A DNA stretch of 58,619 bases, from assembly GCA_028749475.1 (NCBI GenBank), contig JAQVWN010000011.1:1-58619 (forward strand), given 5' to 3'. The notes under the pieces were generated by a model. That model saw nothing but the letters and a program-made list of their open reading frames with translations, did not search any database and was not told where the DNA came from. Origin of the DNA: Thomasclavelia sp. (GTDB lineage: Bacteria; Bacillota_I; Bacilli_A; Erysipelotrichales; Coprobacillaceae). A program made the translations under genes and the position numbers. Positions 24,115 to 56,830 of this stretch are shown one piece after another (position 1 is the stretch's first letter; each line of letters starts with the position of its first letter).

Positions 24115-24807
24115 ATGATTTATTCAAAAGAAGTAGAAAACATGTGCACTGTAACTCAAGGTGCTCATCATGGATGTGCTCCAATTCCTGAAGAAGGAAA
24201 ATGGGTATATTCAAAACAAATCTCAGATATTTCTGGATTAACACATGGTATTGGTTGGTGTGCTCCTCAACAAGGTGCATGTAAACTATCACTTAACGTT
24301 AAAGAAGGTATTATCGAAGAAGCATTAATTGAAACTATTGGGTGTTCAGGAATGACTCACTCTGCTGCTATGGCATCAGAAGCATTAGTTGGACGTACAT
24401 TATTAGAAGCATTAAATACTGACTTAGTATGTGATGCAATCAACACTGCTATGAGAGAACTATTCTTACAAATCGTTTACGGACGTACTCAATCAGCTTT
24501 CTCTGAAGGTGGATTAGTTGTAGGTGCTGGACTTGAAGACTTAGGTAAAGGTCTTAGAAGTATGACTGGTACTGCTTATTCAACTAATTTAAAAGGTCCT
24601 CGTTACTTAGAATTAACTGAAGGTTATATCACTAGAAACGCTTTAGACGAAAATGGTGAAATCATCGGTTATGAATTTGTTAATTTAGGTCGTATGATGG
24701 AAATGATTAAACAAGGAAAAGATGCTAATGAAGCAATGGAAGCTGCTAAAGGAACTTATGGTAGATTCGATGAAGCTGCAAAATACATCGATCCAAGAAA
24801 GGAATAG
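24115..24807 (+). CDS. IscU/NifU-like scaffold protein paired with GGGtGRT protein
   Basis: This 230-residue protein contains an IscU/NifU N-terminal-like fold from about residue 50. Cys56, Cys77 and Cys106 lie where the three Fe-S-assembly cysteines are expected, within GACKLSLNV, TIGCSGMTHSAA and DLVCDAINTA. The GRTLLEAL helix corresponds to the GKTLDEA helix of IscU. Extra cysteines (11, 21, 49) and a C-terminal extension set it apart from true IscU, and no cysteine desulfurase lies nearby. AGGAG is 12 bases upstream of the ATG, a little far. The GGGtGRT gene follows after 12 bp, a pairing known in anaerobic Firmicutes. Its job is not established. Confidence 0.85.
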   Translation: MIYSKEVENMCTVTQGAHHGCAPIPEEGKWVYSKQISDISGLTHGIGWCAPQQGACKLSLNVKEGIIEEALIETIGCSGMTHSAAMASEALVGRTLLEALNTDLVCDAINTAMRELFLQIVYGRTQSAFSEGGLVVGAGLEDLGKGLRSMTGTAYSTNLKGPRYLELTEGYITRNALDENGEIIGYEFVNLGRMMEMIKQGKDANEAMEAAKGTYGRFDEAAKYIDPRKE

Positions 24808-24819
24808 GAGGACACAATA

Positions 24820-25824
24820 ATGGCAGAAATTACATTCGAAGGTTATGAAAGAAGAATTAAACAAATTAATGAAGCCTTAGGTAAATTTGGAATTAGTTCT
24901 ATCGAAGAAGCAAAAGCTATTTGTGATGAAAAAGGTATTAACGTTTATGATATCGTTAAATCTACACAACCTATTTGTTTCGAAAATGCTTGTTGGGCAT
25001 ACACTGTTGGTGCTGCAATGGCAATTAAAAATGGAGATGTTAAAGCAGTAGATGCTGCTAAGACAATTGGTGTTGGTTTACAATCATTCTGTATTCCAGG
25101 ATCTGTTGCTGATGATCGTAAAGTAGGACTTGGACATGGTAACTTAGGAAGTATGTTACTTCATGAAGATACTCAATGTTTCGCATTCCTTGCTGGACAT
25201 GAATCATTTGCAGCTGCTGAAGGTGCAATTAAAATTGCTGAAAAAGCAAACAAAGTAAGAAAACAACCTTTAAGAGTTATCTTAAATGGTTTAGGAAAAG
25301 ATGCTGCAAAAATCATCTCAAGAATTAATGGTTTCACTTATGTAGAAACTCAATTTGATTATTTCACTGGAGAAGTTAAAGAAGTATCTAAGACTGCTTA
25401 TAGTAAAGGTGATCGTGCAAAAGTTAACTGTTATGGTTCTGATGATGTACGTGAAGGTGTTGCTATTATGCATAAAGAAGGTGTAGATGTATCAATCACT
25501 GGTAACTCTACTAACCCTACTCGTTTCCAACACCCAGTTGCTGGAACATATAAAAAAGAATGTATTGAACAAGGTAAGAAATACTTCTCAGTTGCATCTG
25601 GTGGTGGAACTGGACGTACTTTACACCCTGACAATATGGGTGCTGGACCTGCTTCATATGGTATGACTGATACAATGGGTCGTATGCATAGTGATGCTCA
25701 ATTCGCTGGAAGTTCATCAGTTCCTGCTCACGTAGAAATGATGGGACTTATCGGTATGGGTAACAACCCAATGGTTGGAGCAACTGTTGCAGTAGCTGTA
25801 GCTGTTGAAGAAGCTAGCAAATAA
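24820..25824 (+). CDS. GGGtGRT-family protein (conserved, function unknown)
   Basis: A 334-residue protein bearing the name-giving motif GGGTGRT at residues 261-267, followed by LHPDNMGAGPASYGMTDTMGRMHSDAQFAGSS-like conserved sequence rich in Gly, His and Met. Other conserved-looking blocks are FENACWAYTVGAAMAIK and GLGHGNLGSMLLHEDTQCFAFLAGHESF. No enzyme family is recognisable to me. It shares an operon with the NifU-like scaffold and ends in its own strong terminator. The strong promoter and the use of preferred codons suggest high expression (inference). Confidence 0.88.
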   Translation: MAEITFEGYERRIKQINEALGKFGISSIEEAKAICDEKGINVYDIVKSTQPICFENACWAYTVGAAMAIKNGDVKAVDAAKTIGVGLQSFCIPGSVADDRKVGLGHGNLGSMLLHEDTQCFAFLAGHESFAAAEGAIKIAEKANKVRKQPLRVILNGLGKDAAKIISRINGFTYVETQFDYFTGEVKEVSKTAYSKGDRAKVNCYGSDDVREGVAIMHKEGVDVSITGNSTNPTRFQHPVAGTYKKECIEQGKKYFSVASGGGTGRTLHPDNMGAGPASYGMTDTMGRMHSDAQFAGSSSVPAHVEMMGLIGMGNNPMVGATVAVAVAVEEASK

Positions 25825-25872: not shown

Positions 25873-25903
25873 ATAAAAAAAGATAAGTTATTTTAACTTA
25901 TCT
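25873..25903 (-). terminator. terminator at the end of the rpiR-like gene
   Basis: The minus strand forms GATAAGTTA-AAA-TAACTTATC followed by seven U. The stem contains the last codons and stop of the RpiR-like gene. It faces the GGGtGRT terminator, insulating convergent genes. Confidence 0.75.
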
Positions 25904-26670
25904 ATTAATGAGTATTCTTGAGCAATTAATCCGGCAATGAATTGCAGTTGATATGGATGACTTGTTTGATCTTGTAAAGAATCAAAAGAAATCACTTTAT
26001 TAATAAAAGGAAGAATTTCTTTCTTTCCACTAGAAATAAACCATATGGTAGGTTTATTAAGTCTTTTGGTTAGGGATCTTAAATCTTGATAATCAAAATA
26101 AGAACCTGTATATGACAAAATGATTACTAGATCATTTTCACTAGCATTAGTTATATAATCAATTTGTTGTGGATAAGAGATATTGGTATAAACTTGTTTG
26201 CCAAGCATAAGTAAATCTCCTTGAAGATTTATTGCCACAGCCCCCGCTTTTAATAATCCAAAGATAGCAACTCTTTGATACTTTTTAATATCTTGACATA
26301 AATCATTAATTTTATTCATATCAATAGAACTAGTAACCATATCTATACTACTTTTAACTTTATCACAATAATCTAACATTCTTTCCTTGGAATTAGAAGA
26401 ATTAGAGTCATCTTGATAATATAGTTTAGTAGATACTAAAAGTTCTCTAAGTTCCACAAAATCTCTTAAACCAATTTCTTTACAAAAACGTGAAATAGAA
26501 CTTACTGCCACATTACATTCTTTAGCAATTTCTTTAATACCCATATTTTGAACTTTATCAAGATTGTTTAGAATATAAGTAGCAATCTGACTATTAGTTG
26601 AATCTTTTCTTTCACTAGCAATAGTACTTAAAAATACAACTGGTAACTTGTCATATATCACTATAATCAC
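25888..26670 (-). CDS. RpiR/MurR-family regulator (HTH + SIS domain)
   Basis: A 260-residue regulator. The N-terminal RpiR-type HTH spans about residues 25-85 (MGIKEIAKECNVAVSSISRFCKEIGL), and the SIS sugar-phosphate-binding domain about 115-250 (VAIFGLLKAG, LVIILSYTGS). The SIS loop lacks some of the usual Ser/Thr ligands (GLLKAGAVA), so its effector may be unusual. The first codon is GTG (26670), with another in-frame GTG at 26661; neither has a strong ribosome site, so the start is uncertain. It is the last gene after two DJ-1/PfpI genes and probably shares their transcript. Confidence 0.88.
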   Translation of the reverse strand: MIIVIYDKLPVVFLSTIASERKDSTNSQIATYILNNLDKVQNMGIKEIAKECNVAVSSISRFCKEIGLRDFVELRELLVSTKLYYQDDSNSSNSKERMLDYCDKVKSSIDMVTSSIDMNKINDLCQDIKKYQRVAIFGLLKAGAVAINLQGDLLMLGKQVYTNISYPQQIDYITNASENDLVIILSYTGSYFDYQDLRSLTKRLNKPTIWFISSGKKEILPFINKVISFDSLQDQTSHPYQLQFIAGLIAQEYSLIDKLK

Positions 26671-26681
26671 TCTCTTTCTAG

Positions 26682-27233
26682 CTATTTACCTCTAGAAAAA
26701 TTATATAATAGTTTCTCTTTCATTTCATCTACATTTTGGCCTAATGCTTCAATTATCTTAAAGGCAAATGGATATGGTGTTGCTGGTCCTTGACTAGTAA
26801 TGATATTTTGATCTAAAACTGCAACATCATTAACGAAAATACCACCAATTAGTTTTTTATCATAACCAGTATAACCAGTTACTTTTTTACCTTCAATTAC
26901 TTTAGCATCAGATAACACTACTGTTCCTGAACACATCGCAGCTAAATATTTATTTTCTTTATTAAACAATCGAACTAATTTAATAACCTCAGGATTATTT
27001 CTTAAATTATCCCCTCCTGGTCTTCCACCAGGTAAAACTAAAACGTCAAAGTCTTTAATACTATCGTTAAAGATTTGATCAGCTTTAATATAAATATTAT
27101 GCATGCCTTTTACAAATTCATCTTCAAAAGAAAATGTTTTACATTCAATATTTGCTCTTCTTAGTAAATCTACAATTGTAAGAGTTTCACTTTCTTCAAA
27201 CCCTTCTGCCATTAACACTGCAACTTTAGCCAT
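26682..27233 (-). CDS. DJ-1/PfpI family protein, copy 2
   Basis: A 183-residue single-domain DJ-1 superfamily protein (YajL/ThiJ group). The conserved Glu lies in AEGFEESETLTIVD and the nucleophile-elbow Cys in LAAMCSGTVVL. LPGGRPGG and SQGPATPYPFAFKI are typical family blocks. It begins exactly after the stop of its tandem paralog (TAAATG). Members act as protein/nucleotide deglycases, glyoxalases or stress chaperones; which one applies here cannot be told. Neighbouring RpiR and sugar-related genes hint at carbonyl or sugar-damage handling (inference). Confidence 0.9.
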   Translation of the reverse strand: MAKVAVLMAEGFEESETLTIVDLLRRANIECKTFSFEDEFVKGMHNIYIKADQIFNDSIKDFDVLVLPGGRPGGDNLRNNPEVIKLVRLFNKENKYLAAMCSGTVVLSDAKVIEGKKVTGYTGYDKKLIGGIFVNDVAVLDQNIITSQGPATPYPFAFKIIEALGQNVDEMKEKLLYNFSRGK

Positions 27234-27794
27234 TTAATTTTCCTCCTTTACATCGAATGCATTGAAATAAACCATTCTATTTTTAACTGTTAATGAATCT
27301 CCACCTAAAACATCTACTAGTTTATATGCAAAGGCATATGCCGTAGCAGGACCACGACTAGTAATGATATTTCCATCCTTAACAACGATATCCTCTAAAT
27401 AATTACCTTGTTTTATTTTCTTATCGTAACCAACGTAGGCTGTATAATTTTTATTCACTAATAAATTAGCTTTTTCTAGTACTATCGGTGCTGCACACAT
27501 GGCACAGATATATTTATTTTGATTATTCATAATTTGAAGATTATTTATTAATTCATCATTATTTAATAGATTAGTTGCTCCAGGGTATCCGCCTGGTAAA
27601 ATAACCATATCATAATTAGTGATAGCATCATCTAATACTTTATCACAAGTAATGGTAATACCATGTCCTCCTTCTACTGTTTTACTAAAGCCAACAAGAT
27701 CACATTCTAAGTTGGCACGACGAATAATATCAACTATTGTAAGAGTTTCACCCTCTTCAAAACCAGGTGCTACAATAACGGCACTTTTTTTCAT
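27234..27794 (-). CDS. DJ-1/PfpI family protein, copy 1
   Basis: Tandem paralog of the next gene, about 186 residues. It has APGFEEGETLTIVDIIRRANL with the conserved Glu, ICAMCAAPIVL with the reactive Cys, LPGGYPGATNL and SRGPATAYAFAYKL. The residues around the Cys differ between copies (CAAP here, CSGT in the other), so the two may have diverged in substrate. The start at 27794 was chosen over 27800 because AGGAGG then has an 8-base spacing instead of 2. Confidence 0.9.
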   Translation of the reverse strand: MKKSAVIVAPGFEEGETLTIVDIIRRANLECDLVGFSKTVEGGHGITITCDKVLDDAITNYDMVILPGGYPGATNLLNNDELINNLQIMNNQNKYICAMCAAPIVLEKANLLVNKNYTAYVGYDKKIKQGNYLEDIVVKDGNIITSRGPATAYAFAYKLVDVLGGDSLTVKNRMVYFNAFDVKEEN

Positions 27795-27875
27795 TTTCAT
27801 TACCTCCTCTTTCTTCTACCTATAATGTAATCCTATTATTTTAATCAAACAATGTATTTCCAAAAACTGGAAATA

Positions 27876-27911
27876 CGTAAAAAAAAGCTATGTAGCTTGG
27901 CTACATAACTT
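27876..27911 (-). terminator. terminator after EIIB-ROK gene 1
   Basis: The minus strand shows an 11- to 12-bp stem, AGTTATGTAGC and GCTACATAGCT (one G-U), a 3-nt loop and eight U. It directly follows the stop at 27912 and separates the fusion gene from the DJ-1 genes. Confidence 0.85.
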
Positions 27912-29306
27912 TTACTTTTTAAGATATTCCACACATAACTTAGTTATTCCACTAAGCATATAATTACTGACATCCTTAAGAAAATAAAACTCAGGTAAAT
28001 AATCTTCATCAATAAAAGAAGATAAAGCAGTTTTTACTTCATTCATATCTGGAGTCATTTGAGAAGAAATGGCGACAGCTTCAGGACCAACAGTTACAAT
28101 TGATGGCAGTAAAGCTTTGGTTACTAACTCAAGATTGCCTTTTTCACTTAAAGCTAACTTTTCAATATCATCAGATAATTGCATTCTTCGAAGATAATAT
28201 CTTATTTCTCCAGCTATTCCATTTTTACCTCTTACTATTTTACCATTAATGATTATTCCTTGTCCCCCTACTCCATAGCCAAATGGTTGAGAATGATAAA
28301 TAATATTTTGATATTCAGGATGTTCCAATGAGAAGCCCATAACCGCTGCGTTAGCGTTATTGTAAGCAAATACTTTAATATGATATTTATCTTCAAAGGC
28401 TTCCTTTAAATCCACTATTTCTTCAGTATCAGATTCCATCAATAATTTATTATCTTTAACAATTCCTGGGGTTGCAATTCCGATTACATCAATATGTTTA
28501 TGTTTTAATAAAACGATGTCAATAATATCATATAAGTCATAAATACTAGTAGTTGATTTTATAATTTGATTACAATCAATAACTTCACATTTATCATATA
28601 ATCGATAGTATATCTTAGTGGAATTTCTCCCCATCCAAACAACAATTGATAAGATTCTATTATCGTACTGAGCACAGTGTACAAAGTTATCTTCTTGAAC
28701 TTCATTTTTAGAGTTATTAAACTTTTCTAACTCATCTTTGACATAATTGATGGTTGTTAGCGCATCATATGAAGCAAAAGCGGCAGTTGGAATTTGAAGG
28801 ACTAATTTATCAGGAATAGTATCTTGCAAACGTTTTAACATGTATCTTATCTGTGGTGCAATTAAAATAACATCATAGTTTTCAACATCTTGATAAATAC
28901 TTTGATAACTAACGGCATCAAAGTGGTAATCTAAACCTAGCATTTCTATTGTTGAATTAAGTTGTTCAGCAAACATAGAAGTAGTAAGTCCAGCAGAACA
29001 TGAAAGTAATACCCGAGTAGTTTTTTTATTTTTTAAACCAATTAATGATTGAACCATTTCATCATATAATTCTTTACAATGATCTTCATCATTTAATTCA
29101 AAATGTAAATAAAATACCGAAGAATTATCTTTGTATGCTGTAATTGAAAATTCCACAATCGTTTGATTTTCTATACTAGTAAAATTAATACTAGCCTCAC
29201 CATATTCTGTCTTTAGTTTAATTACATCATCACTTTCATTAACAATTTCATATTCTTCATTTTTATGACTTCTAATCCATTCTTTAAAATCAAAATTATT
29301 ATCCAT
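27912..29306 (-). CDS. three-part protein: unknown N-domain + PTS EIIB (Lac/Cel type) + degenerate ROK, paralog 1
   Basis: About 464 residues. Residues 1-92 are an unrecognised domain shared with the paralog at 32814-34205 (common pattern E[FY]G.ASI.F and FYLHF). Residues 97-198 are a lactose/cellobiose-type PTS EIIB: the phosphocysteine loop VLLSCSAGLTTS has Cys103, and DVILIAPQIRYMLK matches the family core. Residues 216-464 are ROK-like (IGIATPGIV, ANAAVMGF, GVGGQGIIINGKIVRG, AGEI). The ATP-phosphate DxGGT loop, the catalytic Asp (NDAN is NNAN, Asn317) and the CxCGxxGC zinc motif are missing. It is probably a sensor or regulator, not a kinase. The start at 29306 has AGAGG at good spacing. 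No EIIC or EIIA is encoded nearby. Confidence 0.85.
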   Translation of the reverse strand: MDNNFDFKEWIRSHKNEEYEIVNESDDVIKLKTEYGEASINFTSIENQTIVEFSITAYKDNSSVFYLHFELNDEDHCKELYDEMVQSLIGLKNKKTTRVLLSCSAGLTTSMFAEQLNSTIEMLGLDYHFDAVSYQSIYQDVENYDVILIAPQIRYMLKRLQDTIPDKLVLQIPTAAFASYDALTTINYVKDELEKFNNSKNEVQEDNFVHCAQYDNRILSIVVWMGRNSTKIYYRLYDKCEVIDCNQIIKSTTSIYDLYDIIDIVLLKHKHIDVIGIATPGIVKDNKLLMESDTEEIVDLKEAFEDKYHIKVFAYNNANAAVMGFSLEHPEYQNIIYHSQPFGYGVGGQGIIINGKIVRGKNGIAGEIRYYLRRMQLSDDIEKLALSEKGNLELVTKALLPSIVTVGPEAVAISSQMTPDMNEVKTALSSFIDEDYLPEFYFLKDVSNYMLSGITKLCVEYLKK

Positions 29307-29360
29307 ATTCATCCTCTTTTCTATGATGAGCTTATACTTAAACTTTAAACCATTAAAGTA

Positions 29361-29388
29361 AAAAATACTAGATTAGATCTAGTATTTC
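29361..29388 (-). terminator. terminator of the oxidoreductase operon
   Basis: A perfect 11-bp stem AAATACTAGAT/ATCTAGTATTT with a 3-nt loop and trailing U follows the stop of the YhhX-like gene. This separates it from EIIB-ROK gene 1, which therefore likely has its own promoter. Confidence 0.8.
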
Positions 29389-30413
29389 TATTTTAAGTTT
29401 TTAATACCTTCTTCTAAAATTTGCATTTGTAGCAATGTTTGAGAAGGAGTAATTGTTGGTTCTTTGCCATTGATAATAACTTGATAAATATCATCATATA
29501 CTCTTCCATAATCACCATTTGTAGAAACTACTTTTTCTTCATGATAATTATTATTTTCATCATAATATGTTAGTGTTCCATATTGTTCAGGTGTATCAAC
29601 CCCAAAGTCCTTATGATCAATTGGTAAATAAAACTTTTTTAAATCTGTTTCTTGTAAGTCTTTATAGTAGTGCTCAAACATTCCTTTTTTACCATAGACT
29701 ACAAAACTAGGACGACTTTTAATTCTAAAATATGAAGATTTTACTGATACTTTTAATTTATTGTAGTAAAGATCTAAATCAAAATAATCATTCATTCGAC
29801 CTTCACCTAGAAGTTGTCTAACATCATAATGAATACTATCCGGTTTACCAAAATAACTAATTACTTGGTCTAAAGTATGACAACCATGTCCATATAAATA
29901 AGAGTGATATGGATTAAACTCAGTAATTGATTCTGGTATTTCTGGACGATAATAATCAAAGTGCATTTCCAGTTCTAATAAATCACCTAATTTACCTGAT
30001 TCAATTACTTTTTGAACCGTTAAAAAGTCGGAATCAAATCTTCTATTTTGATAAGCTTGAATTAGAAGATTTTTACTTTTAGCTAAATCAAATAATTCTT
30101 TGGCTTCTTTATAAGTATCCATAAAAGGTTTTTCACATAAACAATTTTTATTATGTTCTAAAACCATTTTAGAAAATTCATAATGTTTTACCGGTGTAGT
30201 TACTACAACTAAATCTATTTGAGGATCGTTTAATAACTCATCAATATTGGTTGTATATTTAACATCTTCTATTTCTTTCCACTTATCATGTTTAATTGTA
30301 CGATTATAAATAGTTTTTACTTTAATATTATCTCTAGTTAATACAAATGGTAAATGATATCTATTTGTAGATTTACCATTTCCAATAAAACCTATTGTCA
30401 TTACTTTTGCCAT
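29388..30413 (-). CDS. Gfo/Idh/MocA oxidoreductase, YhhX-like
   Basis: An NAD(P)-dependent sugar or cyclitol oxidoreductase of about 341 residues. The Rossmann start IGFIGNGKSTNRYHLPFVL, the CEKPF motif with the catalytic Lys, YQNRRFDSDFLT and HFDYYRPE closely resemble E. coli YhhX as I remember it. The true start at 30413 is set by AGGAG upstream; the longer frame to 30440 lies inside the preceding gene. It ends a three-gene unit (UPF0303, Gfo 1, this gene). The substrate is unknown even for YhhX; a role in sugar, inositol or amino-sugar oxidation is inference. Confidence 0.88.
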   Translation of the reverse strand: MAKVMTIGFIGNGKSTNRYHLPFVLTRDNIKVKTIYNRTIKHDKWKEIEDVKYTTNIDELLNDPQIDLVVVTTPVKHYEFSKMVLEHNKNCLCEKPFMDTYKEAKELFDLAKSKNLLIQAYQNRRFDSDFLTVQKVIESGKLGDLLELEMHFDYYRPEIPESITEFNPYHSYLYGHGCHTLDQVISYFGKPDSIHYDVRQLLGEGRMNDYFDLDLYYNKLKVSVKSSYFRIKSRPSFVVYGKKGMFEHYYKDLQETDLKKFYLPIDHKDFGVDTPEQYGTLTYYDENNNYHEEKVVSTNGDYGRVYDDIYQVIINGKEPTITPSQTLLQMQILEEGIKNLK

Positions 30414-30423
30414 ATTTTTTCTC

Positions 30424-31404
30424 CTATTTATCATTATCAAATATTACATTTACTTGTTTACGAGCAGTTTCCATAACTTTAGAAACGATTAAACTATTAT
30501 CCAACATTTTATTAGCAGTTATAAAATCCAATTCATTAATAATTCGATTGAATTCAATAAATTCGTAATATAAACGATGTTTAGGATCTTCAACTTTAAT
30601 TGTTTCTTTATCACCCTTATTACTACTTACTTCGTATTCGACAGATTGAGACATTGGAGTTGTAATTTTAATAAAACCTTCATCTCCTTGAATAGTATTA
30701 ACTACTGGTGCCTGACAGTCTTTAGCTCCAATACACACGGCTTTAAATGTTCCATAATCTAAAGTTAAAATTCCACTAGTATCAATTCCTTTTTCGATGT
30801 TTGCTTCATAGTTTACTTCTTTGGGTTGACCAAATAAATTAACCACTGTTGAAAGGTTATAAACATTAATATCCATTAATGCTCCACCTGCTTTATGATA
30901 ATCAAACACTGGTAAGATTTGTCCTTGTTTAAAAGCATTATATCTAGATGAATATTGAGAATAATTCATTGAAACAATCTTGATTTTACCAACTTTACCA
31001 ATATCTTTTTGAATTCCTTTAAAAACTGGTATGTAAGGAATATTCATAGCTTCTAAGATAATTTTATTTTGTTTTTTAGCAATAGTTATTAAATCTTTTA
31101 ATTCTTTTGAGTTTGCAGTTATTGGCTTTTCAATAATTACATGTTTACCTTTAAGTAAAGCTTTTTTAGCAAATGAATAATGTAAGAAATTAGGTAAAGC
31201 CACATAAATAGTATCAACATCACTATCTAATAGTTCATCATAATCTAAAGTGTAGCCACTTATCTTATGTTTACTGATCATTTCTTTAGCTAAATCGATT
31301 GTACTTTCTGTTGCTAGAATAGTAGCATCTTCAATACCTAAAATATCAAAAGTGTTCATTAAGTCTTGAACAATCATTCCGGTTCCTAATATTCCAAGTT
31401 TCAT
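30424..31404 (-). CDS. Gfo/Idh/MocA oxidoreductase
   Basis: A 326-residue dinucleotide-dependent oxidoreductase. The N-terminal Rossmann fold has LGILGTGMIVQDL, and the catalytic EKP motif appears in VIIEKPITAN. A C-terminal GFO_IDH_MocA domain follows (GGALMDINVYNLSTVVNLFG). It is only distantly similar to the YhhX-like enzyme encoded next, so the pair are not recent duplicates. Its ATG overlaps the stop of the UPF0303 gene by four bases. Two consecutive dehydrogenases suggest a short oxidation/reduction route on a sugar, but no isomerase, aldolase or permease accompanies them. Confidence 0.88.
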   Translation of the reverse strand: MKLGILGTGMIVQDLMNTFDILGIEDATILATESTIDLAKEMISKHKISGYTLDYDELLDSDVDTIYVALPNFLHYSFAKKALLKGKHVIIEKPITANSKELKDLITIAKKQNKIILEAMNIPYIPVFKGIQKDIGKVGKIKIVSMNYSQYSSRYNAFKQGQILPVFDYHKAGGALMDINVYNLSTVVNLFGQPKEVNYEANIEKGIDTSGILTLDYGTFKAVCIGAKDCQAPVVNTIQGDEGFIKITTPMSQSVEYEVSSNKGDKETIKVEDPKHRLYYEFIEFNRIINELDFITANKMLDNSLIVSKVMETARKQVNVIFDNDK

Positions 31405-31826
31405 TTAAATTCCCTCATCTTTCTAAGTGCTTTTATTATTAACTCATGATCCTTATCATGTTCTAATCCTGATATACAAAATACTCCTTTTACTTCGCTA
31501 TTTTCTATTAAAGGAAAACCTCCTCCACATATTACATATTTATCATCATTTTCTAATTCTTGATAGTCCTTAGAATTTTCAAAAACATAATATGAACTAT
31601 GGTTAGTTTTTAAAACTGTGTTCTCTTTTCTATTTAACCATTCTTCACCATTTTTATCATCCATTAAGTATTGAAAGACAATATCTTTATTGTAGGTTAC
31701 TCTAATACGAACATTTTTTAACTTTTCTTCTTTAATTATTTCTAAAACATTCATTCCAAATTCTAAAGCTTGATGATGTTGAAATGATTTAAAAGTAAAA
31801 TGCTTTTCTAATTGTAAAGTATTCAT
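31401..31826 (-). CDS. UPF0303 / heme-degrading-domain (HbpS-GlcG fold) protein
   Basis: A 141-residue protein resembling the UPF0303 family (Haem_degrading fold): F....A..FG segments near the N-terminus, VRIRVTYNKDIVFQYLMDDKNGEEWLNRK in the middle, and GGGFPLIENSEVKGVFCISGLEHDKDHELI at the end. Despite the Pfam name, heme degradation is not shown for this subgroup. Family members often sit beside sugar oxidoreductases. It is the first gene of the three-gene unit, with AGGAG upstream. Confidence 0.8.
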   Translation of the reverse strand: MNTLQLEKHFTFKSFQHHQALEFGMNVLEIIKEEKLKNVRIRVTYNKDIVFQYLMDDKNGEEWLNRKENTVLKTNHSSYYVFENSKDYQELENDDKYVICGGGFPLIENSEVKGVFCISGLEHDKDHELIIKALRKMREFK

Positions 31827-31935
31827 AGTTATCTCCTTTATGATTTAATTCTAACATAAGAATTATTTGATAAAAGTTTAAAAGATAAATATGGAAAAAA
31901 AGTAAAAAGAAAAGAAATAAAAGAAGAATAATATC

Positions 31936-32781
31936 TTACTTTTTTTCCTTTTCTAGTTTATCGATATATCTTTTTCTTTGATTATTTATCTTATAATTCT
32001 TAGAAAAGAGTAAAGCGTAAATAGTATTTAAAATATATTCAAAGACAAATTGAGAATAGAAAGTAGCTATTTTACTATCATGTTCTTTGTCACTTATAAG
32101 TAATGTATAATCACTGTATTTAGATATTACTGAATTATCATTAGCGGTTATACTAACAATTTTTGTACCATTGTTTTTTAATAATGAAGTACATTTATCA
32201 AATACATTTTTACCCTTATAACTAATGAATAAAGCTAAATCATTACTAGTAGTATTGATACTATTAGCGATAGCTTCCCCATTTTCATTGGCATTTATAA
32301 TATAAATGTTAAGTTTAGTTAGTTTATTAATAAAAGCTTTAACAGTAATAGAAGTGTCTCCGGTGGCATAAATAAATACTCTACTTGCTTCACTTATTTC
32401 ATTGACAATCTTCTCTAATTTATTAACATCTAGATTACTTAAAACTACATCTATGCTTTCTTTATATAATGAAGCCATATTTTTTACTATTTCATTAGTA
32501 TTTTGTAGATCATAAAAAGGCGATGAAAAATCAATTGTTTCATTTAGATATTTCTTAGATTCTAATTCTTTAATCATTTCTATTTTAAAGTCTTTATAAC
32601 CTTTAAAGCCTAGTTTTTGACAAAGTCTAATAATTGTTCCATTAGATGTGTATGTCTTAGACGCTAGTAGCGTAATAGTCATATTAGTAAATTCAGATTG
32701 ATTATTAATAATATAATTAATTATCTCTTGTTCACCTTTAGAATAAGTATTTAATTGTTTGGTCATTTTTTCAATTAACAT
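31936..32781 (-). CDS. RpiR/MurR-family regulator (HTH + SIS domain), second copy in the island
   Basis: A 281-residue protein. The HTH_6 domain lies at about 1-75 (NMTITLLASKTYTSNGTIIRLCQKLGFKGYKDFK). The SIS domain at about 125-250 keeps the serine/threonine-rich sugar-phosphate loop (IYATGDTSITVKAF; ISYKGKNVFD). It follows EIIB-ROK gene 2 by 32 bp and precedes the UPF0303/Gfo unit, so it is well placed to control the island. It is not closely similar to the RpiR at 25888-26670. GAGG lies upstream of the ATG. Confidence 0.9.
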   Translation of the reverse strand: MLIEKMTKQLNTYSKGEQEIINYIINNQSEFTNMTITLLASKTYTSNGTIIRLCQKLGFKGYKDFKIEMIKELESKKYLNETIDFSSPFYDLQNTNEIVKNMASLYKESIDVVLSNLDVNKLEKIVNEISEASRVFIYATGDTSITVKAFINKLTKLNIYIINANENGEAIANSINTTSNDLALFISYKGKNVFDKCTSLLKNNGTKIVSITANDNSVISKYSDYTLLISDKEHDSKIATFYSQFVFEYILNTIYALLFSKNYKINNQRKRYIDKLEKEKK

Positions 32782-32813
32782 TTACTTTCCTCTTTTAAAT
32801 TATATCATAGAAC

Positions 32814-34205
32814 TTATTGATCTTGAGCACAGAGAATTAATTGACCTGGTAAAGTATAACTATCTAGTCTTTCTTCAATTCTTATTTCTGGAATATACTT
32901 TTGTGGAATATTTTTTTCAACATTTACAACTAAACTACTTAAAGATTCTTTTGAAAGTAAAGAATCAAAAACAACTATTAGTTCAGGTGCTAAGGTAACA
33001 GATAAATTAGTAATTATATTACTAACTAACTCAACCATTCCTTCAGGAGTCTTATTTAAAACTAAAGGATGATTAGAAATATTAAGTGACATATATTGAA
33101 CTTCTCCTGCCAGTGATTTATTTCCTCGATGAAGACGACCATCAATAATGTTTCCTACACCACCATAATTATTAATTGGTTGAAAGTATACACAGATATT
33201 CTTATATTTATCTTGTGTTGCATAATAACCAACAGCTGCCGTATTTACATCATTACAAACAATCACTTTTCTATCTTTATACTTATTTCGAGCAGAGGTT
33301 AATAGATTTGTTGAACTTAGTCCATGAACATCGGCATAATCAACATATCCATCAACTATTATTCCTGGAATAGATATGCCAATTGATTCTACCTTTGGTT
33401 CAATTAATAATACTGTGTCAATGATATCAAAGATGTCACTAACATCTAATTGATATTTTATGATTTCGCTATCTAAAACTATCTTATTATTTTTATCGTA
33501 CACTCGATATAAAGCATGAATTCTTCCAGAATTACGAATTATTGATAAAACAAATATTTTATTATGTTCGGGCATTTCATTTTTTATTTCGATTGGTTTA
33601 TTTTGTTGGGATATTTTTTCATTTTGTTTAAGAACGGATTCTTTTTCCATTATTCTAATCATCGCGGCAACATCATATGTAGCAAATACTTTAGTAGGAA
33701 TTTCTAATACTCTTTTATCTTTAAATAAATTGGTTATCCGTTTACTTTCATAGGCTATTTGAGGAACTAACATAACTAAGTCATATTTTTCGATTTCATT
33801 ATATAAATTTAAATATGACGTTGCTTGAATATCATAATCTAGTTTTAAAAGTTTTAAAGCTTCTCTCACTCTTCCAGCAAAATAAGAAGTAGTAAGACCA
33901 CCAGTACAACATAAAAGAACTTTAAAGACAACTTTTTTGCTTAAGTGATTATAAGCATCCATTAATTCTTTGTACAGTTTTTTAGCATGAGAAAACGTTT
34001 TATATTGGAAATGAAGGTAAAATTCATTTTCTTTGGTTTTGGCATTTGTGACAATAAACTCGATAATATCAAGATTATTAAATGTAATACTGGCATAACC
34101 AAATTCATTTACAATATTAATTTCGGTTGGAGAAACATTTACTTTAGATTTTGGATATTCATTAGATAATATCCAACTATAAAATTCCTGAACATTAGCT
34201 TCCAT
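32814..34205 (-). CDS. three-part protein: unknown N-domain + PTS EIIB + ROK-like, paralog 2
   Basis: A 463-residue protein with the same architecture as the one at 27912-29306. The shared N-domain is 1-90 (EFGYASITF, FYLHF). The EIIB domain is about 95-190, with VLLCCTGGLTTS (phosphocysteine most likely Cys100) and YDLVMLVPQIAYESKR. The ROK-like domain is about 215-463. The catalytic Asp is kept here (CNDVN, Asp319), unlike in paralog 1, but the DxGGT phosphate loop and the CxCGxxGC zinc motif are absent. The two copies share the domain plan but are clearly diverged. It heads a probable unit with the RpiR regulator. Sugar-dependent phosphotransfer signalling is inferred from domains only. 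Confidence 0.85.
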   Translation of the reverse strand: MEANVQEFYSWILSNEYPKSKVNVSPTEINIVNEFGYASITFNNLDIIEFIVTNAKTKENEFYLHFQYKTFSHAKKLYKELMDAYNHLSKKVVFKVLLCCTGGLTTSYFAGRVREALKLLKLDYDIQATSYLNLYNEIEKYDLVMLVPQIAYESKRITNLFKDKRVLEIPTKVFATYDVAAMIRIMEKESVLKQNEKISQQNKPIEIKNEMPEHNKIFVLSIIRNSGRIHALYRVYDKNNKIVLDSEIIKYQLDVSDIFDIIDTVLLIEPKVESIGISIPGIIVDGYVDYADVHGLSSTNLLTSARNKYKDRKVIVCNDVNTAAVGYYATQDKYKNICVYFQPINNYGGVGNIIDGRLHRGNKSLAGEVQYMSLNISNHPLVLNKTPEGMVELVSNIITNLSVTLAPELIVVFDSLLSKESLSSLVVNVEKNIPQKYIPEIRIEERLDSYTLPGQLILCAQDQ

Positions 34206-34269: not shown

Positions 34270-34303
34270 ATTAAAATCTCATATCAATAAGATATGAGAT
34301 TAA
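34270..34303 (-). terminator. terminator after the SDR/pckA unit
   Basis: A perfect 10-bp stem ATCTCATATC/GATATGAGAT, 5-nt loop and trailing U on the minus strand, three bases past the SDR stop. Confidence 0.75.
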
Positions 34304-35085: not shown

Positions 35086-36687
35086 CTAACTATCTTTTTT
35101 AGACTTAGGCCCTGCTTTTTTAATTATATTAGCGTCTTTCATTTTAGAATATTTACTATCAAAGTTATGCTCAAATAGAATAGCTAATTCATTTCTTTGA
35201 AACTTATAAGCATCTTTATCTTGCCATGAATTTTGAGGGTTAAGTATTTCTGATGGTATTCCACGACATTCAGTCGGAATATCTAAATTCAAAACATCAT
35301 CATGAACATATTTTACCTCATCTAAGAAACCACTTAAAGCCGCACTAACCATTGCTCTAGTATATTCAAGGGCAATACGTTTACCAACTCCAAATTGGCC
35401 ACCTTGCCATCCAGTATTTACTAAAAATACATTTGAATGGTGTTTATCAATTTTTTCTCCTAACATTTTAGCATAGATTAAAGGATTCATCGGTAAGAAT
35501 GGTTCCCCAAAACATGCTGAGAATGTTGGTTGAGGTTTAGTAATTCCTCTTTCAGTACCCGGTATTTTAGAAGTAAAACCAGTAATATAATGATACATCG
35601 CTGCTTCTTTAGAAAGTCTACTTATTGGTGGTAATACTCCGAAAGCATCAGCAGTTAAGAAAATTATATTATTTGGATTACGACCAATTCCAGGTATTTG
35701 CGAATTGTTGATAAAATATGTTGGATAAGCAACCCTCGTATTACTAGTTAAACTATCATCAAAGTAATCAGGTGCTCTATTATATTTATTAACAACTACA
35801 TTTTCTAAAACAGAGCCAAATTTAATGGCGTTATAAATATCAGCTTCTTTATATGGATCTAAGTTAATACATTTTGCATAACATCCACCTTCAAAGTTAA
35901 AGATACCATAATCTGACCAACCATGTTCATCATCTCCAATAAGTTTTCTTGTTGGATCAGCAGAAATAGTTGTTTTACCAGTTCCAGAAAGTCCGAAGAA
36001 TATGGCTGTATTTCCAGTACGAGGATTTAAGTTAGAACTACAATGCATAGGTAAAACATCTTCCTTAGTCATTAAATAGTTCATAACTGAAAAGATACTC
36101 TTTTTAATTTCTCCAGAATATTTAGTACCGGCAATTAAAACAGTTCGATCTTCAAAATTAACAATTATAGCGGCTTCAGAATGAGTACCATCTATTTCCG
36201 GTACACATTTAAAACCAGGAGCAACAATAATATTAAAATCAGGCTCTCCATAAATCTCTAATTCTTCTTTTGATGGTCTAATCAATAATTGATGAATAAA
36301 TAGATTTTGAGAAGCTAATTCATTAATTACTCTAAATTTCTTAGTGTAATGAACATCAGCTCCAGCAAATCCATCAAAAATATATATATCTTTGTGATTT
36401 AAATACTTAGTCATTTTTTCTTTTAATTTAAAATATTTATCTTCATCGATAGGTTTATTTACTTTTCCCCAGTTAATATCATCATGAATAGCTTTTGTAT
36501 CAACTATAAACTTATCATCTGGACTTCTTCCAGTATATTTTCCAGTTTCAATTACTAAGGCACCTGTTTCACTTAGTTTTCCTTCATTTCTTTTTAAAGC
36601 CGCTTCGACAAGTAAAACAGCACTTAAATTACGATAGACATTAGTTGGTGAAGTAATACCTATATTTTCTATTCCATATTTGTTCAT
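35086..36687 (-). CDS. pckA: phosphoenolpyruvate carboxykinase (ATP)
   Basis: Interconverts oxaloacetate plus ATP with PEP, CO2 and ADP; gluconeogenic, or anaplerotic in some anaerobes. The length of 533 is typical for the ATP-type enzyme. It has the kinase-1a loop GLSGTGKTT near residue 235, metal and substrate residues in LIGDDEHGWSD, and FLTADAFGVLPPI. ATG at 36687 has AGGAG upstream. A cre-like box overlaps the -35 of its promoter, suggesting repression on good sugars. Confidence 0.97.
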   Translation of the reverse strand: MNKYGIENIGITSPTNVYRNLSAVLLVEAALKRNEGKLSETGALVIETGKYTGRSPDDKFIVDTKAIHDDINWGKVNKPIDEDKYFKLKEKMTKYLNHKDIYIFDGFAGADVHYTKKFRVINELASQNLFIHQLLIRPSKEELEIYGEPDFNIIVAPGFKCVPEIDGTHSEAAIIVNFEDRTVLIAGTKYSGEIKKSIFSVMNYLMTKEDVLPMHCSSNLNPRTGNTAIFFGLSGTGKTTISADPTRKLIGDDEHGWSDYGIFNFEGGCYAKCINLDPYKEADIYNAIKFGSVLENVVVNKYNRAPDYFDDSLTSNTRVAYPTYFINNSQIPGIGRNPNNIIFLTADAFGVLPPISRLSKEAAMYHYITGFTSKIPGTERGITKPQPTFSACFGEPFLPMNPLIYAKMLGEKIDKHHSNVFLVNTGWQGGQFGVGKRIALEYTRAMVSAALSGFLDEVKYVHDDVLNLDIPTECRGIPSEILNPQNSWQDKDAYKFQRNELAILFEHNFDSKYSKMKDANIIKKAGPKSKKDS

Positions 36688-36708: not shown

Positions 36709-36745
36709 ATTTTATCTTATTCTATATTTAATGTAAATGCTTACA
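36709..36745 (-). promoter_or_regulatory. pckA promoter with cre-like (CcpA) operator
   Basis: On the minus strand -35 TTTACA (36732-36737) and -10 TAAAAT (36709-36714) are 17 bp apart. The near-palindrome TGTAAATGCTTACA (36732-36745, written on plus) matches the cre consensus TGWAARCGYTWNCW at 13 of 14 positions and covers the -35 box. CcpA control is inferred. Confidence 0.65.
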
Positions 36746-47490: not shown

Positions 47491-50400
47491 TTATAATTCT
47501 TCTTTTTTCTTTTTTAAAGCTAAGATTGAAATAATTAACATTGAAATTAACATTCCATATACATTATACATTACATTAACATCATCACCTGTTTTAGGTT
47601 TATTGTTTACACCATTATTAGGAGTAACAATAGGTGTTGATGGTATAGCTGTAGGAGTTAAAATAACAGATATTGTTATTTGTGTTCCTTCTAATGTTGT
47701 AATAGTAATGCTAAATTTACCACCTTGATTATTTGCAATAGCTTCATTTATTTTAGCAAGTTGAGTTGCATCAACTGATAAAGCCTCAACAGGTAATAAC
47801 TTACCATCCTTATCATAAGCTTGGACTTTACCAAGATTAATGATATCTGTTGGACTTAAAGATCCATCACTATCATTATGATAGATGTCATTACCACCAA
47901 TAGTTTCATTAGTACTCTTATCAGTAATTACGTTTTCTCTTAAAGTTACATTAATTGTAATTGTAGAGCCTAAGGCAGTAGTAAATGTAAGTGGATAACT
48001 CTTATCAATGACTTTATTCTTTATTGCATCATTGATGACTTCTAATTGATCACTATCAACAGTAACTGTTGATAAATCAATAGGATTTCCATCTTTATCC
48101 AAAACAACTAAATTAGATAATTTTTTAGCATCCTCATTAGAAATACTTCCATCACTAATACTATAAATAAAGTCTTTAGCCTCAATATTTTCTTTATTCC
48201 AAACAGCCTTTAAAGCAATATTCTCAGCAGGTAATTTAGAAACATCAGTTACTGTTATTACATTTCCTTTTGAGTCAGTGTATTCCCATCCACCAAAATA
48301 ATAACCATCTTTAGTCGGATTAGTTGGGAATCCTGTTGATTGATTAATCAATGAATCATAGTCAGCAGTTATATCTAAACTATCGATAGTAGATGCCTCT
48401 TTAGAGCCATTACTATCAAATGTGATATGATATTGATTTACTGTCCATACAGCAATTAGAGTTATTTCTGGTTTATCATTTGGATCTAAATCACTAAATA
48501 CATCAGAGTTAGTTACATCAACTAAAGCACGTGTATTTGTATCTTGTACCCATTTAGAGAATGTATAACCAGTCTTTATTGGATTAGTTGTAGGAAGTAA
48601 ATTTGTATCAGTCCATTTTACTCCGGTTTTATCAGAAATTGCAGTTCCACCAGTCGTATCATAATGAACGATATAATTATCTTTTTCAACCCACTTAGCA
48701 GTTAGAGTAACTTCATCAACAGAATCATCAGTAACTAAATCTGAATATTTAGTTGAGCTAGTTACTTTGGAATTGTCAACATACCAACCATCGAAAGTAT
48801 AACCTTTTCTAGTAGGTGCTGTTGGTAATAATGATGCATCACTAAAGTGAACTGTTTTATCTTCTGGATTTGTTGATCCAGTGTAACCCAAATCATAATG
48901 AACTGTGTAATCATTTTGAGTCCAATTAGCCTCTAATACAACATCACTAGCTGGCATTGTAAACTTACCATCAGAAATTGTAACTGTAGTTGGAGTTTTA
49001 ATTGTCCATCCTGTAAATGTCCATCCTTCTCTTGTTGGTACATCAGATGAAACTATAATTACATCTTTTATATGATTATTTGTAGTTTGAGTTGGTACAT
49101 CACTTGAATCATCAGCTTTAGGCGCTTCATAAGTTACTTTATAATCAACTGGAGTCCATTTACCAGTTAATGTTGTTTCACTGACAGAATCATCAGTAAC
49201 TAAATCAGAATATTTAGTTGTACTAGTTACCTTAGTGTTGTCAACATACCAACCATCAAATGTATAACCTTCTCTAGTAGGTGCTGTAGGTAATAATGAT
49301 GCATCACTAAAGTGAACTGTTTTGTCTTCTGGATTTGTTGATCCAGTGTAACCCAAATCATAATGAACTGTGTAATCATTTTGAGTCCAATTAGCCTCTA
49401 ATACAACATCACTAGCTGGCATTGTAAACTTACCATCAGAAATTGTAACTGTAGTTGGAGTTTTAATTGTCCATCCTGTAAATGTCCATCCTTCTCTTGT
49501 TGGTACATCAGATGAAACTATAATTACATCTTTTATATGATTATTTGTAGTTTGAGTTGGTACATCACTTGAATCATCAGCTTTAGGCGCTTCATAAGTT
49601 ACTTTATAATCAACTGGAGTCCATTTACCAGTTAATGTTGTTTCACTAACAGAATCATCAGTAACTAAATCAGAATATTTAGTTGTACTAGTTACCTTAG
49701 TGTTATCAACATACCAACCATCGAAAGTATAACCTTCTCTTGTAGGTGCTGTTGGTAACAATGATGTATCACTAAAGTGAACTGTTTTGTCTTCTGGATT
49801 TGTTGATCCTGTGTAACCTAAATCATAATGAACTGTGTAATCATTTTGTGTCCAATTTGCCTCTAATACAACATCACTAGCTGGCATTGTAAACTTACCA
49901 TCAGAAATTGTAACTGTAGTTGGAGTTTTAATTGTCCATCCTGTAAATGTCCATCCTTCTCTTGTTGGTACATCAGATGAAACTGTAATTACATCTTTTA
50001 TATGATTATTTGTAGTTTGAGTTGGTACATCACTTGAATCATCAGCTTTAGGCGCTTCATAAGTTACTTTATAATCAACTGGAGTCCATTTACCAGTTAA
50101 TGTTGTTTCACTTACAGAATCATCAGTAACTAAATCTGAGTATTTAGTTGAGCTAGTTACCTTAGTGTTATCAACATACCAACCATCGAAAGTATAACCT
50201 TCTCTTGTAGGTGCTGTTGGTAACAATGATGTATCACTAAAGTGAACTGTTTTGTCTTCTGGATTTGTTGATCCTGTATAACCCAAATCATAATGAACTG
50301 TGTAATCATTTTGTGTCCATTGAGCTACCAAAGTAACAGAGGCAACTTGATCATTAGCTACTAAGTCTGAGTATTTAGTAGCATCAGTTATAGTAGTTGT

Positions 50401-53400
50401 TCCAAGTTTCCATCCATTAAATGTATATCCTTCTCTTGTAGGAGTAGTTGTTGGTAATAATGATGCATCACCAAAGTGAACACCAGTTTTATTAGCAATA
50501 GTGCTTCCACCAGCAGTGTTGTAAATTACAGTATATTCATTTTGAGTCCATTTAGCATAGATAGTCATATTCTCTGTAATTGGATCATCAAAATTATGTT
50601 CTGTTACAAATGTTGAATTATTATACCATCCTTCAAAAGTCCATCCAGTTTCAGTTGGATTAGTTGGGCTTGAAATAGTATCTTCATATTTTACAGTTTT
50701 GTTAGGGACTTGAGTTCCATGACCTTGCATATCATATGATAAAGTTACATCATCTCTTGAATAATATAATTTTATTACTAAAGAACCATTTGCAGTAATT
50801 GTTAAAGCTGTTGTACTAGCAGGAGTATATGAATTTTCATATGTTGTTTTTGAACTATCATATGTAAATCCATCATAACTGTTACTTATTACTTGAACAT
50901 CTCCTCCAGTTGTTCCAGTTAAATTAGCTGTTTCTTTTTTAGTGTAAGTATTAGCATTTAAATCTTGTAAATAATACTCAACTTTATAAGCCGTATCCGT
51001 ATTTGCTTGCCATATAGCATATAAATTAATAACATCTCCATCAGTACTAGTTAAATTCTTTACTTCTTTAGAATTAGTGTATTCTACGTTTCCAGTTGGT
51101 GTTGTTGACCAACCTTTAAATGTATAACCTAGTTTAGTAAATGTGTTTGTTGTTAAAGCTTGGTTTTCATCATATGTAAATTGTTGATTTTCCATTGCTC
51201 CAGTGCCACTATTTGCATTAAATTTAATAGTGTACTTGATAGGAGTAAAGTTAGCTTTATATGATGCTGTCTCATATAAACCAGTTGTTGTGTCCTTTTG
51301 AGGGACAAATGTAAGGTCAGTTGATACTTCAACACCTCCGACAGTCCAGTTTACAAATTTGTAACCAGTTTTTGCAGTTGCTGTTGAACCATTAGGTGCA
51401 CCAGTTAATACCCCTATTGTTTCAGAAGCCTTATCAACTGTTCCTTGAGCAGTATTATTACTTGCATAGTTGATTGTAACTTCATTTTCAGTCCATTTAG
51501 CATAAAGCGTTGTATCTTTGGTAATTAAAGTATCAAAATCAAATTTATTTTCACAAGTACTTTCTGTATACCATCCACCAAATGTATATCCTTTTTTAGT
51601 AGGATTAGCAGGCTTGTTAGATTTTTCACCATCATCTACAGTTTGTTTATCTGGTGTATCAGAATCAGCATCTTGGGTATTAAAATTAACATCCCATGTA
51701 ATTTTTTCATAATTAATTACATAACTTGTAGATTTTAAAAGTTTAGAAGTAACTATATTTCCGCTAACATAGTTTCCATGTCCATCGTCAGTTAATGTTA
51801 ATACTACACTACCTCCATCGTCTACTAACTCACTAGAAATAGTTGTTAAATTAGAATTATTGATAAGCGGAACATTCTTAACTGTTTTATCAGTTCCATT
51901 AGGCACTTGGAGAGTTATTGAACTAATCTTATAATGGTCCTTAGCTTGGAAACTAATAGATCCATTATACTCACCAACAAAGTTTTCATCCCACTCATAA
52001 TTACTTGTTGTCTTGTTTCCTACTTCGGTTGCCGGAGTGGTACCTTCTACAGTTTTAACATAGCCATTACCATCGGTAGATCCTGCTAAAAATGGAATAT
52101 GGGCAAATACTGGTTGAATAGTAGTATTACCAGTAATTTCTAAATCTTTGTAGTCAGTAATAACCCCTACTGTTGTAGTTTCATCAGGGTTCGTTATAGT
52201 GTAACGCCAACCAGTTTGTAAATAGTCTGGATTTATGCCAGATAAAGTTATATTTAAGGTAGGGTTTCCTTCAAACTCGACCTTCTCGCTATCCTTACCA
52301 TCATCTTTAACAAGAGTAGCTACATCTTCGCTAGGCGCTAAGAATGAAACATCATATTTTACTCGATTATAATAGTACTTAATAACTAAACTTCCATCGC
52401 CAGCAATATCTAGTTTAGTAGAAGTAGCTGATGTATTATCAGTTTGATAAGTTGTTTTATCATATTCAAATCCAGTAAATGTTTTCTTTGTACTTGTGGG
52501 CTCAGTATCAGTTGTACCTTGGGCATTTACACGAGCACTTGTATCTTCAGTATAAGTAGATGCATCTTTATCCTTTAAGTAATACTTAACAGTATAAGGT
52601 GTATCTTCATTAGCTTTAAATTTAGCTGTATAAGTTCCACCAGTATATAAACCATCTTCTTGACTTGGAACATATGTAGCATTTGTAGAAACTTGGTTTC
52701 CTTCAGAATCATACCAACCTAAGAAAGTATATCCAGCTTTAGTTGTTGCTTTAGAACCTTTTGGACTTCCAGTAACTGGTTTAACATTTTCTTCATCTAA
52801 AGAAACTGTTCCACCCTTACTTGGACTAGTTTCATATTTATATGTTACTGGATCATTTTCCGTCCATTTTGCATATAATGTCATATCTTTAGTGACACCA
52901 TCATTAAAATCATACTCATTAGTATAAGATTCTGATGTATACCAACCATTGAATGTGTAACCCTTTTTAGTAGGATTAGTTGGTTTAGTTACTTTGTCAT
53001 TTTCTTTAATATCGTTTTGAGATTCAACAGATGAACCACCTTTGCTATTAAAGTTCACATCATATAAAGCATTTCTATAAGCCATGTATAAATAACCTGC
53101 TCCCATAGATGTTGGACTAGTAGTTGCAGCATTATAAATCGATTTATCAGTTCCACTAAAATAGAATATTGAAACAGCACTGCATTGATCATTTAAAGTG
53201 GTATTAGCTTTTATAGTAGGTGCAACGACAGGTATTTCAATAGTAACCGTTCCACCTGGTTCCAATTTAGTCAACTTAACGGCCACATAGTTTGAAGTAC
53301 TATCATAACTAGAAGAACCGTTATTATTATAAAAATCAGCCGCATTAGTGGAAGCAATAGTTTGGGATGGAGATAGTGTCATATATTTAAATTCACTGTT

Positions 53401-56715: not shown

Positions 56716-56830
56716 TTTTCTTCCCCTTTTACACACACTTCTAGATACTTAATTATATCACGAATGTATAGACAAATTCAAATCCAATAAGGAAGGAAAT
56801 GGGATAATTATACTTAATAATATTTTAAAC

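Follow-up and report, generated by a model that had tools for sequence, protein, structure and literature searches.

EIIB-ROK fusion proteins in Thomasclavelia: candidate phosphotransferase-linked regulators without a recognisable DNA-binding domain

What might a protein do that carries the phospho-acceptor domain of a sugar phosphotransferase system (PTS) on the same chain as a degenerate ROK domain? The question is raised by two genes, here called A and B, that lie in a stretch of 58,619 nucleotides of Thomasclavelia sp. (contig JAQVWN010000011.1 of assembly GCA_028749475.1), referred to below as the window. Both encode an N-terminal domain, an EIIB domain of the lactose/cellobiose type and a ROK domain. 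The initial annotation had regarded EIIB joined to ROK as an unfamiliar architecture, and in the open-licence literature no published account of it was found, nor any account of sugar regulation in the gut Erysipelotrichales to which this bacterium belongs. The fusion is best read as a variant of PTS-controlled ROK regulation.

Two paralogous proteins with an unusual set of domains

Features in the window are open reading frame (ORF) calls, domain calls are Pfam matches at curated cut-offs, and structure was addressed with AlphaFold2 (AF2) and Foldseek. The two genes and their parts are as follows.

27912..29312, minus strand: EIIB-ROK fusion A (subfamily A), 466 aa; ORF, Pfam, AF2, Foldseek
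29022..29312, minus strand: N-domain of A, residues 1-97; helix, five strands, helix; conserved FYLHF; AF2 pLDDT 89.6, pTM 0.80
28707..29021, minus strand: EIIB domain of A, lactose/cellobiose type, residues 98-202; PTS_IIB 5e-10; PDB relatives 4mge, 2l2q, 1iib
28998..29000, minus strand: predicted phosphocysteine C105 of A, in LLSCSAGLTTS; column invariant in A1, family conservation
27915..28658, minus strand: degenerate ROK domain of A, residues 219-466; DxGGT and zinc motif absent, Asn in place of the catalytic Asp
32814..34205, minus strand: EIIB-ROK fusion B, 463 aa; ORF, Pfam, paralogue alignment
33906..33908, minus strand: predicted phosphocysteine C100 of B, in LLCCTGGLTTS; alignment
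32817..33557, minus strand: degenerate ROK domain of B, about residues 217-463; DxGGT and zinc motif absent, catalytic Asp retained (ND)

The limits originally given for B (32814-34205) stand, whereas those for A (27912-29306) do not reach its start, as the ORF extends to 29312 and 29306 marks its third codon, also a methionine. A and B are paralogues with 32% identity over their full length, and in each protein both domains exceed the Pfam cut-offs: PTS_IIB at residues 100-179 of A (5e-10) and 95-178 of B (1.5e-10), and ROK at residues 232-370 of A (8e-13) and 258-372 of B (2e-7). Among solved structures, those of EIIB-Cel and EIIB-Chb come closest in sequence to the EIIB part; for the C-terminal part, ROK proteins do. 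Three modules are visible in the AF2 model of A (26 homologues; pLDDT 84.6, pTM 0.67), the C-terminal part of which resembles both ROK kinases and ROK repressors in Foldseek (best 6jdc, TM 0.73 by target length); matches of the model include Mlc in the Mlc/EIIB crystal 3bp8. The domain search, applied to both proteins, and the structure prediction of A agree that EIIB and ROK folds occur in one chain, as had been proposed from the sequence of the window.

The N-domain, of about 95 residues, has no curated Pfam match, and that of A has no Foldseek match at E<=0.001 in PDB or BFVD. The notion that it is a hidden DNA-binding domain was rejected: its AF2 fold is a helix, five strands and a helix, and Pfam gave no helix-turn-helix (HTH) match in either A or B, nor a PRD match. 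Below threshold, the domain weakly resembles the immunity protein TriTu, with a best Pfam value of 6e-4 (10/69 members) and a Foldseek match to 7zhm of probability 0.91 but E 0.5; the likeness perhaps reflects a shared protein-binding fold.

The phosphocysteine loop is intact in both proteins (C105 in A, C100 in B), as first described, and its cysteine is kept in 77/77 proteins that contain the N-domain and EIIB (57 fused, 7 encoded in the split gene pairs discussed below and 13 solitary; three that fell outside the search pattern were read by eye). Whole-protein identity among the relatives is as low as about 30%, and the cysteine is nonetheless unchanged. Among 26 fused proteins there is no variation in the TT beside it or in the PQ of the APQ motif, and among 14 unfused N-EIIB proteins none in the cysteine or PQ. 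Such constancy of the phospho-acceptor is what a working EIIB would be expected to show.

The ROK domain has lost some residues and kept others. The DxGGT phosphate loop is absent from 56/56 fused proteins, while most of the 21 further ROK proteins compared have it. The zinc motif CxCGxxGC is missing from A and B (rows L216, L219) and also from some ordinary ROK proteins of the same genomes, and is present in an ordinary HTH-ROK regulator of the same bacterial family (L227, G036). The absence of both motifs, already remarked in the initial annotation, is thus borne out for the two window proteins. Of the sugar-pocket residues, Asn is retained in 56/56 fused proteins and the AGE Glu in 55/56, and the PG turn has its Pro in 56/56; the catalytic Asp of the ND motif is kept in 41/56, including B, and replaced by Asn in 13/56, including A. 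A domain with a sugar pocket but no ATP site would be in keeping with a receptor role. Since DxGGT is lacking, the fusions cannot be placed among the ROK kinases, and since an HTH is lacking, they cannot be placed among the DNA-binding ROK repressors.

Split gene pairs, descent and distribution

Key context, absent from the initial annotation, is the existence of relatives in which the parts are separate and of a lineage in which the DNA-binding domain has been replaced. Seven genomes of the family (L048-L054) encode the parts as two genes, an N-EIIB gene (~200-230 aa) followed downstream by an HTH-ROK gene. In all seven the N-EIIB gene lies upstream on the same strand, with gaps of -29 to +3. 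These pairs were fetched as loci where both halves matched, and their adjacency is therefore a matter of selection; their overlap, order and strand were not selected. The layout of the HTH-ROK partner is that of NagC/XylR-type repressors: a winged HTH stands above the Pfam cut-off in L048 (HTH_24, 8e-7), and the STGGRK ROK-repressor signature follows the HTH in some of the split-pair proteins.

The ROK domains of the split pairs are among the closest to those of the fusions. In ROK trees the fused proteins form one clade (SH-aLRT 99 in a quick tree, 88/94 in a careful one), which falls within the HTH-ROK regulators and is split from the kinases with support of 98 in the quick tree and 100/100 in the careful tree; the quick tree also groups the fused and split-pair ROKs (support 95). 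A tree of the N-EIIB part likewise contains one fused clade (99), in which one broken fused gene (L055) is found. A single fused clade inside the HTH-ROK regulators suggests that N-EIIB replaced the DNA-binding domain, probably once. As judged from these sequences, the simplest history would be one fusion within an N-EIIB/HTH-ROK operon, the gene order of which was already suitable, together with loss of the HTH. The proposal that the ROK part is a regulatory rather than a catalytic module also gains from its apparent descent from HTH-ROK proteins, along with the lost ATP loop and the retained sugar-pocket residues.

Three loci (L061, L062, L064) are collinear with the split-pair loci and have kept N-EIIB, with no HTH-ROK gene adjoining. 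With regard to a shared operator upstream of the split pairs, no common palindrome was found. Perfect cre-like TGTAAACG[TG]TTACA palindromes do precede the N-EIIB start by 50-60 nt at L051 and L053; the other 869 upstream regions lack a perfect copy, and the count among fused genes is 0/40. The palindromes could be CcpA sites or an operator of the HTH-ROK protein.

The EIIB-ROK architecture is old, conserved and widespread within one bacterial order. All 43 genomes of the Coprobacillaceae that were searched carry at least one relative, and 36/43 (a hand count from the search table) the full fusion, several of them in multiple copies; the named relatives are a Thomasclavelia and a Massilimicrobiota metagenome-assembled genome. 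In the rest of the order (Erysipelotrichales) a full-length match was obtained in about 25/202 genomes, nearly all of one genus, and outside the order no fusion was found in samples of 395 class genomes and 392 phylum genomes, which overlap in many genomes and of which the phylum sample spans 155 genera. The N-domain alone is also restricted to the order in the class sample, except for one weak match (G293, E 1e-5). The genome of the window encodes, in addition to A and B, a solitary N-EIIB protein (G000:C8:22474-23076; L060 7439-8080), beside which, on the opposite strand, lie an RpiR gene and a gene with a calcineurin-type phosphoesterase-like start, as judged by eye.

Gene neighbourhood in the window and across the family

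Between and around A and B the window contains the following features.

34275..34301, minus strand: terminator-like hairpin between an SDR gene and B, predicted upstream operon boundary; hairpin scan
31936..32781, minus strand: RpiR regulator (HTH_6 + SIS), 32 bp downstream of B; Pfam
31401..31826, minus strand: HbpS-like (PF03928) protein; Pfam
30424..31404, minus strand: Gfo/Idh/MocA oxidoreductase; Pfam
29388..30440, minus strand: Gfo/Idh/MocA oxidoreductase, PRK10206-related; Pfam, domain match
27883..27913, minus strand: terminator-like hairpin with a 14-bp stem and T run at the stop of A, predicted operon end; hairpin scan

The hairpin scan found eight hairpins against 1.8 expected, and no minus-strand hairpin was listed between 34275-34301 and 27883-27913. 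With terminator-like hairpins on both flanks and none between, the genes from B through RpiR, HbpS and the two Gfo genes to A may form one operon, and an operon bounded by these terminators is plausible, in keeping with the initial view that the pair frames a unit. The genes around and between A and B comprise, by Pfam, two RpiR, two Gfo/Idh/MocA, one HbpS-like and two DJ-1/PfpI genes, and the remark that the island lacks a PTS permease holds, as none was seen by Pfam among its ten genes. PTS donors are encoded elsewhere in the genome (2 EIIA-lac, 2 HPr and 10 EIIC genes), none of them in the island; judging from this gene content, phosphate for the EIIB domain could come from the general PTS in trans. 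The second RpiR gene shares the stretch 25888-27800, and its strand, with two DJ-1/PfpI genes in tandem, and a similar RpiR and DJ-1 pair lies ~4 kb from two N-EIIB genes in another genome (G006, L063). A similar RpiR-HbpS-Gfo set surrounds a B-type gene in G023 (L067). An origin from a plasmid or a defence system was rejected, there being no plasmid match and no PADLOC match.

The idea that A and B, with the RpiR and Gfo genes, serve a single sugar pathway fits the predicted operon in the window, but a gene-neighbourhood survey indicated that such an arrangement is not a rule of the family. The survey covered genes within 5 kb of 58 fused loci and in 40 comparison regions from seven genomes of the same family. 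RpiR genes were at background frequency (8/58 at fused loci, 6/40 in comparison regions; p = 1.0), and a conserved partnership with RpiR across the family was rejected. A conserved PTS permease neighbourhood was likewise rejected, EIIC genes being below background (2/58 against 7/40, p = 0.03), as was a conserved GH1 neighbourhood (5/58 against 7/40). Gfo1-type Gfo/Idh/MocA genes accompany 5/58 fused loci, two of which belong to the window, and 0/40 comparison regions, numbers too small for a conclusion.

At L116 and L118, from two genomes of a different genus, an HTH-ROK gene stands 127 bp downstream of the fused gene and is itself followed by a PHP gene and a sugar O-acetyltransferase gene. 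Sugar O-acetyltransferase genes occur near 12/78 N-EIIB loci against 0/40 comparison regions (p = 0.008), an enrichment that was chosen post hoc among loci that are not independent and is to be taken as a lead. A maltose/galactoside-type O-acetyltransferase gene (Mac + Hexapep) directly adjoins N-EIIB, EIIB-ROK or HTH-ROK genes in several genera (L136-L139, L055, L065, L125, L143, L135), frequently with a 4-bp overlap.

Other features of the window lie farther from these genes. A cre-like site, TGTAAATGCTTACA (1 mismatch), at 36732-36745 is located 45 nt upstream of a gene (35086-36687) that by eye resembles an ATP-type phosphoenolpyruvate (PEP) carboxykinase, the number of such sites in the window being within chance. 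A NifU-like protein (a weak match) adjoins a GGGtGRT-family protein (PF14057) at 24115-25824, and 47491-56736 encodes a protein of 3081 aa, probably located at the cell surface, in which Listeria-Bacteroides repeats (at least 14) occur together with divergent InlB B-repeats.

How the fusion may act, and its nearest known counterparts

We favour, with a probability of about 0.5, the view that A and B are soluble PTS-responsive regulators that sense both PTS phosphorylation and a sugar and act via partner proteins rather than on DNA. An EIIA of the lactose/cellobiose type would phosphorylate the EIIB cysteine in trans, so that the state of EIIB would report PEP and sugar-uptake status, and the ROK domain, with its pocket and its presumed inability to use ATP, would serve as the sugar receptor. 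In the ancestral two-gene unit N-EIIB presumably switched an HTH-ROK repressor by contact, much as unphosphorylated EIIB-Glc holds Mlc. Fusion would have joined both parts while dropping the DNA-binding domain, and the product most likely works by protein contact, either in mixed oligomers with, or by titration of, a DNA-binding partner or PTS proteins. Candidate partners are HTH-ROK proteins in some genomes, the fused gene upstream of HTH-ROK at L116 and L118 being suggestive of mixed ROK oligomers, and possibly the neighbouring RpiR regulator in the window.

Several points weigh against this view. The output of a fused form without an HTH is the weak step of the proposal, and no partner is consistently adjacent, most fused loci being without an RpiR, HTH-ROK or PTS gene nearby. 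The careful tree leaves open the order of the fused and split-pair ROKs, and of four HTH-ROK proteins scanned one has an HTH above the Pfam cut-off, the others having it below that level or not at all. The comparison with Mlc, moreover, is one of logic and not of homology, because the EIIB is of the lactose/cellobiose type and not EIIB-Glc.

An alternative without any transcriptional role, possible but unlikely, is that the fusion binds or drains off the phosphate of EIIA and, upon sugar binding by the ROK domain, adjusts PTS transport in this way. The solitary loci with their conserved cysteine would suit such a sink, and a soluble EIIB without a permease could compete for EIIA, but descent from a paired DNA-binding regulator would then be left unexplained. 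More doubtful is the suggestion that the fused ROK is a mere dimerisation scaffold and that the N-domain and EIIB bind a partner regardless of phosphorylation, the cysteine being kept for the fold; the AF2 model of the N-domain as a small alpha-beta unit of the size of a binding protein, weakly TriTu-like, is in its favour, yet it fails to account for a cysteine and surrounding TT loop unchanged across the family, or for ROK sugar residues that are likewise kept. A PEP-driven soluble sugar kinase, in which phosphate would pass from EI through HPr and EIIA to EIIB and on to a cytosolic sugar in the ROK pocket, the phosphocysteine replacing ATP in a permease-free PTS enzyme, would accord with the invariant cysteine, the lost ATP loop beside retained pocket Asn and Glu, the scarcity of EIIC genes nearby and the catalytic Asp that most fusions, B among them, still possess, but is very improbable given the Asn at this position in 13/56 proteins including A, nearest relatives that are HTH-ROK regulators and not kinases, and the want of a consistently adjacent dedicated EIIA or catabolic gene. 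Were it true, the Asp-less subfamily A would represent non-catalytic sensor paralogues, such as A beside B.

Control of a ROK regulator by the PTS has been known as a meeting of the regulator, Mlc, with a distinct membrane-bound protein, EIIB-Glc. One bacterial order appears to have built a like link with a different EIIB, at first from a pair of overlapping genes and later in a single chain without DNA binding, and to have multiplied it to several copies per genome. The fusion would offer a soluble and tractable model for how a sugar-binding domain reads PTS phosphorylation; it is also a candidate explanation of sugar regulation in common gut Erysipelotrichales.

Each part of the fusion has known counterparts. 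With the ROK sugar kinases it shares the fold and the sugar-site Asn and Glu, plus the Asp in B, but it lacks DxGGT and the zinc motif, and subfamily A has lost the Asp. The ROK repressors (NagC, XylR, Lmo0178, Mlc) have the same fold and sugar-pocket residues, and the split-pair relatives also their winged HTH and, in some, an STGGR-type signature, whereas the fused form carries N-EIIB instead of the HTH and the window proteins are without CxCGxxGC. The PTS EIIB proteins of the lactose/cellobiose type (EIIB-Cel, EIIB-Chb) have the fold, the APQ motif and the CSxGLTTS loop that holds the phosphocysteine, but here the domain is not encoded with EIIA or EIIC and is fused to an N-domain and ROK. 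Regulators with an EIIB-like domain of their own exist, such as MtlR (PMC6148471), one of the PRD regulators, in which that domain acts as a phospho-sensor inside the regulator; in contrast, the fusions have no PRD, EIIA or HTH, and their output domain is ROK. The nearest known logic appears to be that of E. coli Mlc, a ROK repressor without a small-molecule inducer that is bound by unphosphorylated EIICB-Glc and thereby kept off DNA (PMC3901232). There too a ROK-fold regulator is coupled to an EIIB (PtsG; 3bp8), and in both systems signalling is expected to depend on EIIB phosphorylation; here the EIIB is of the lactose/cellobiose type, soluble, provided with an extra N-domain and co-encoded with or fused to the ROK protein, the fused form being without an HTH. 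By this analogy, the split pair resembles the Mlc/EIIB arrangement built from a different EIIB family, and the fusion resembles the same link in one chain.

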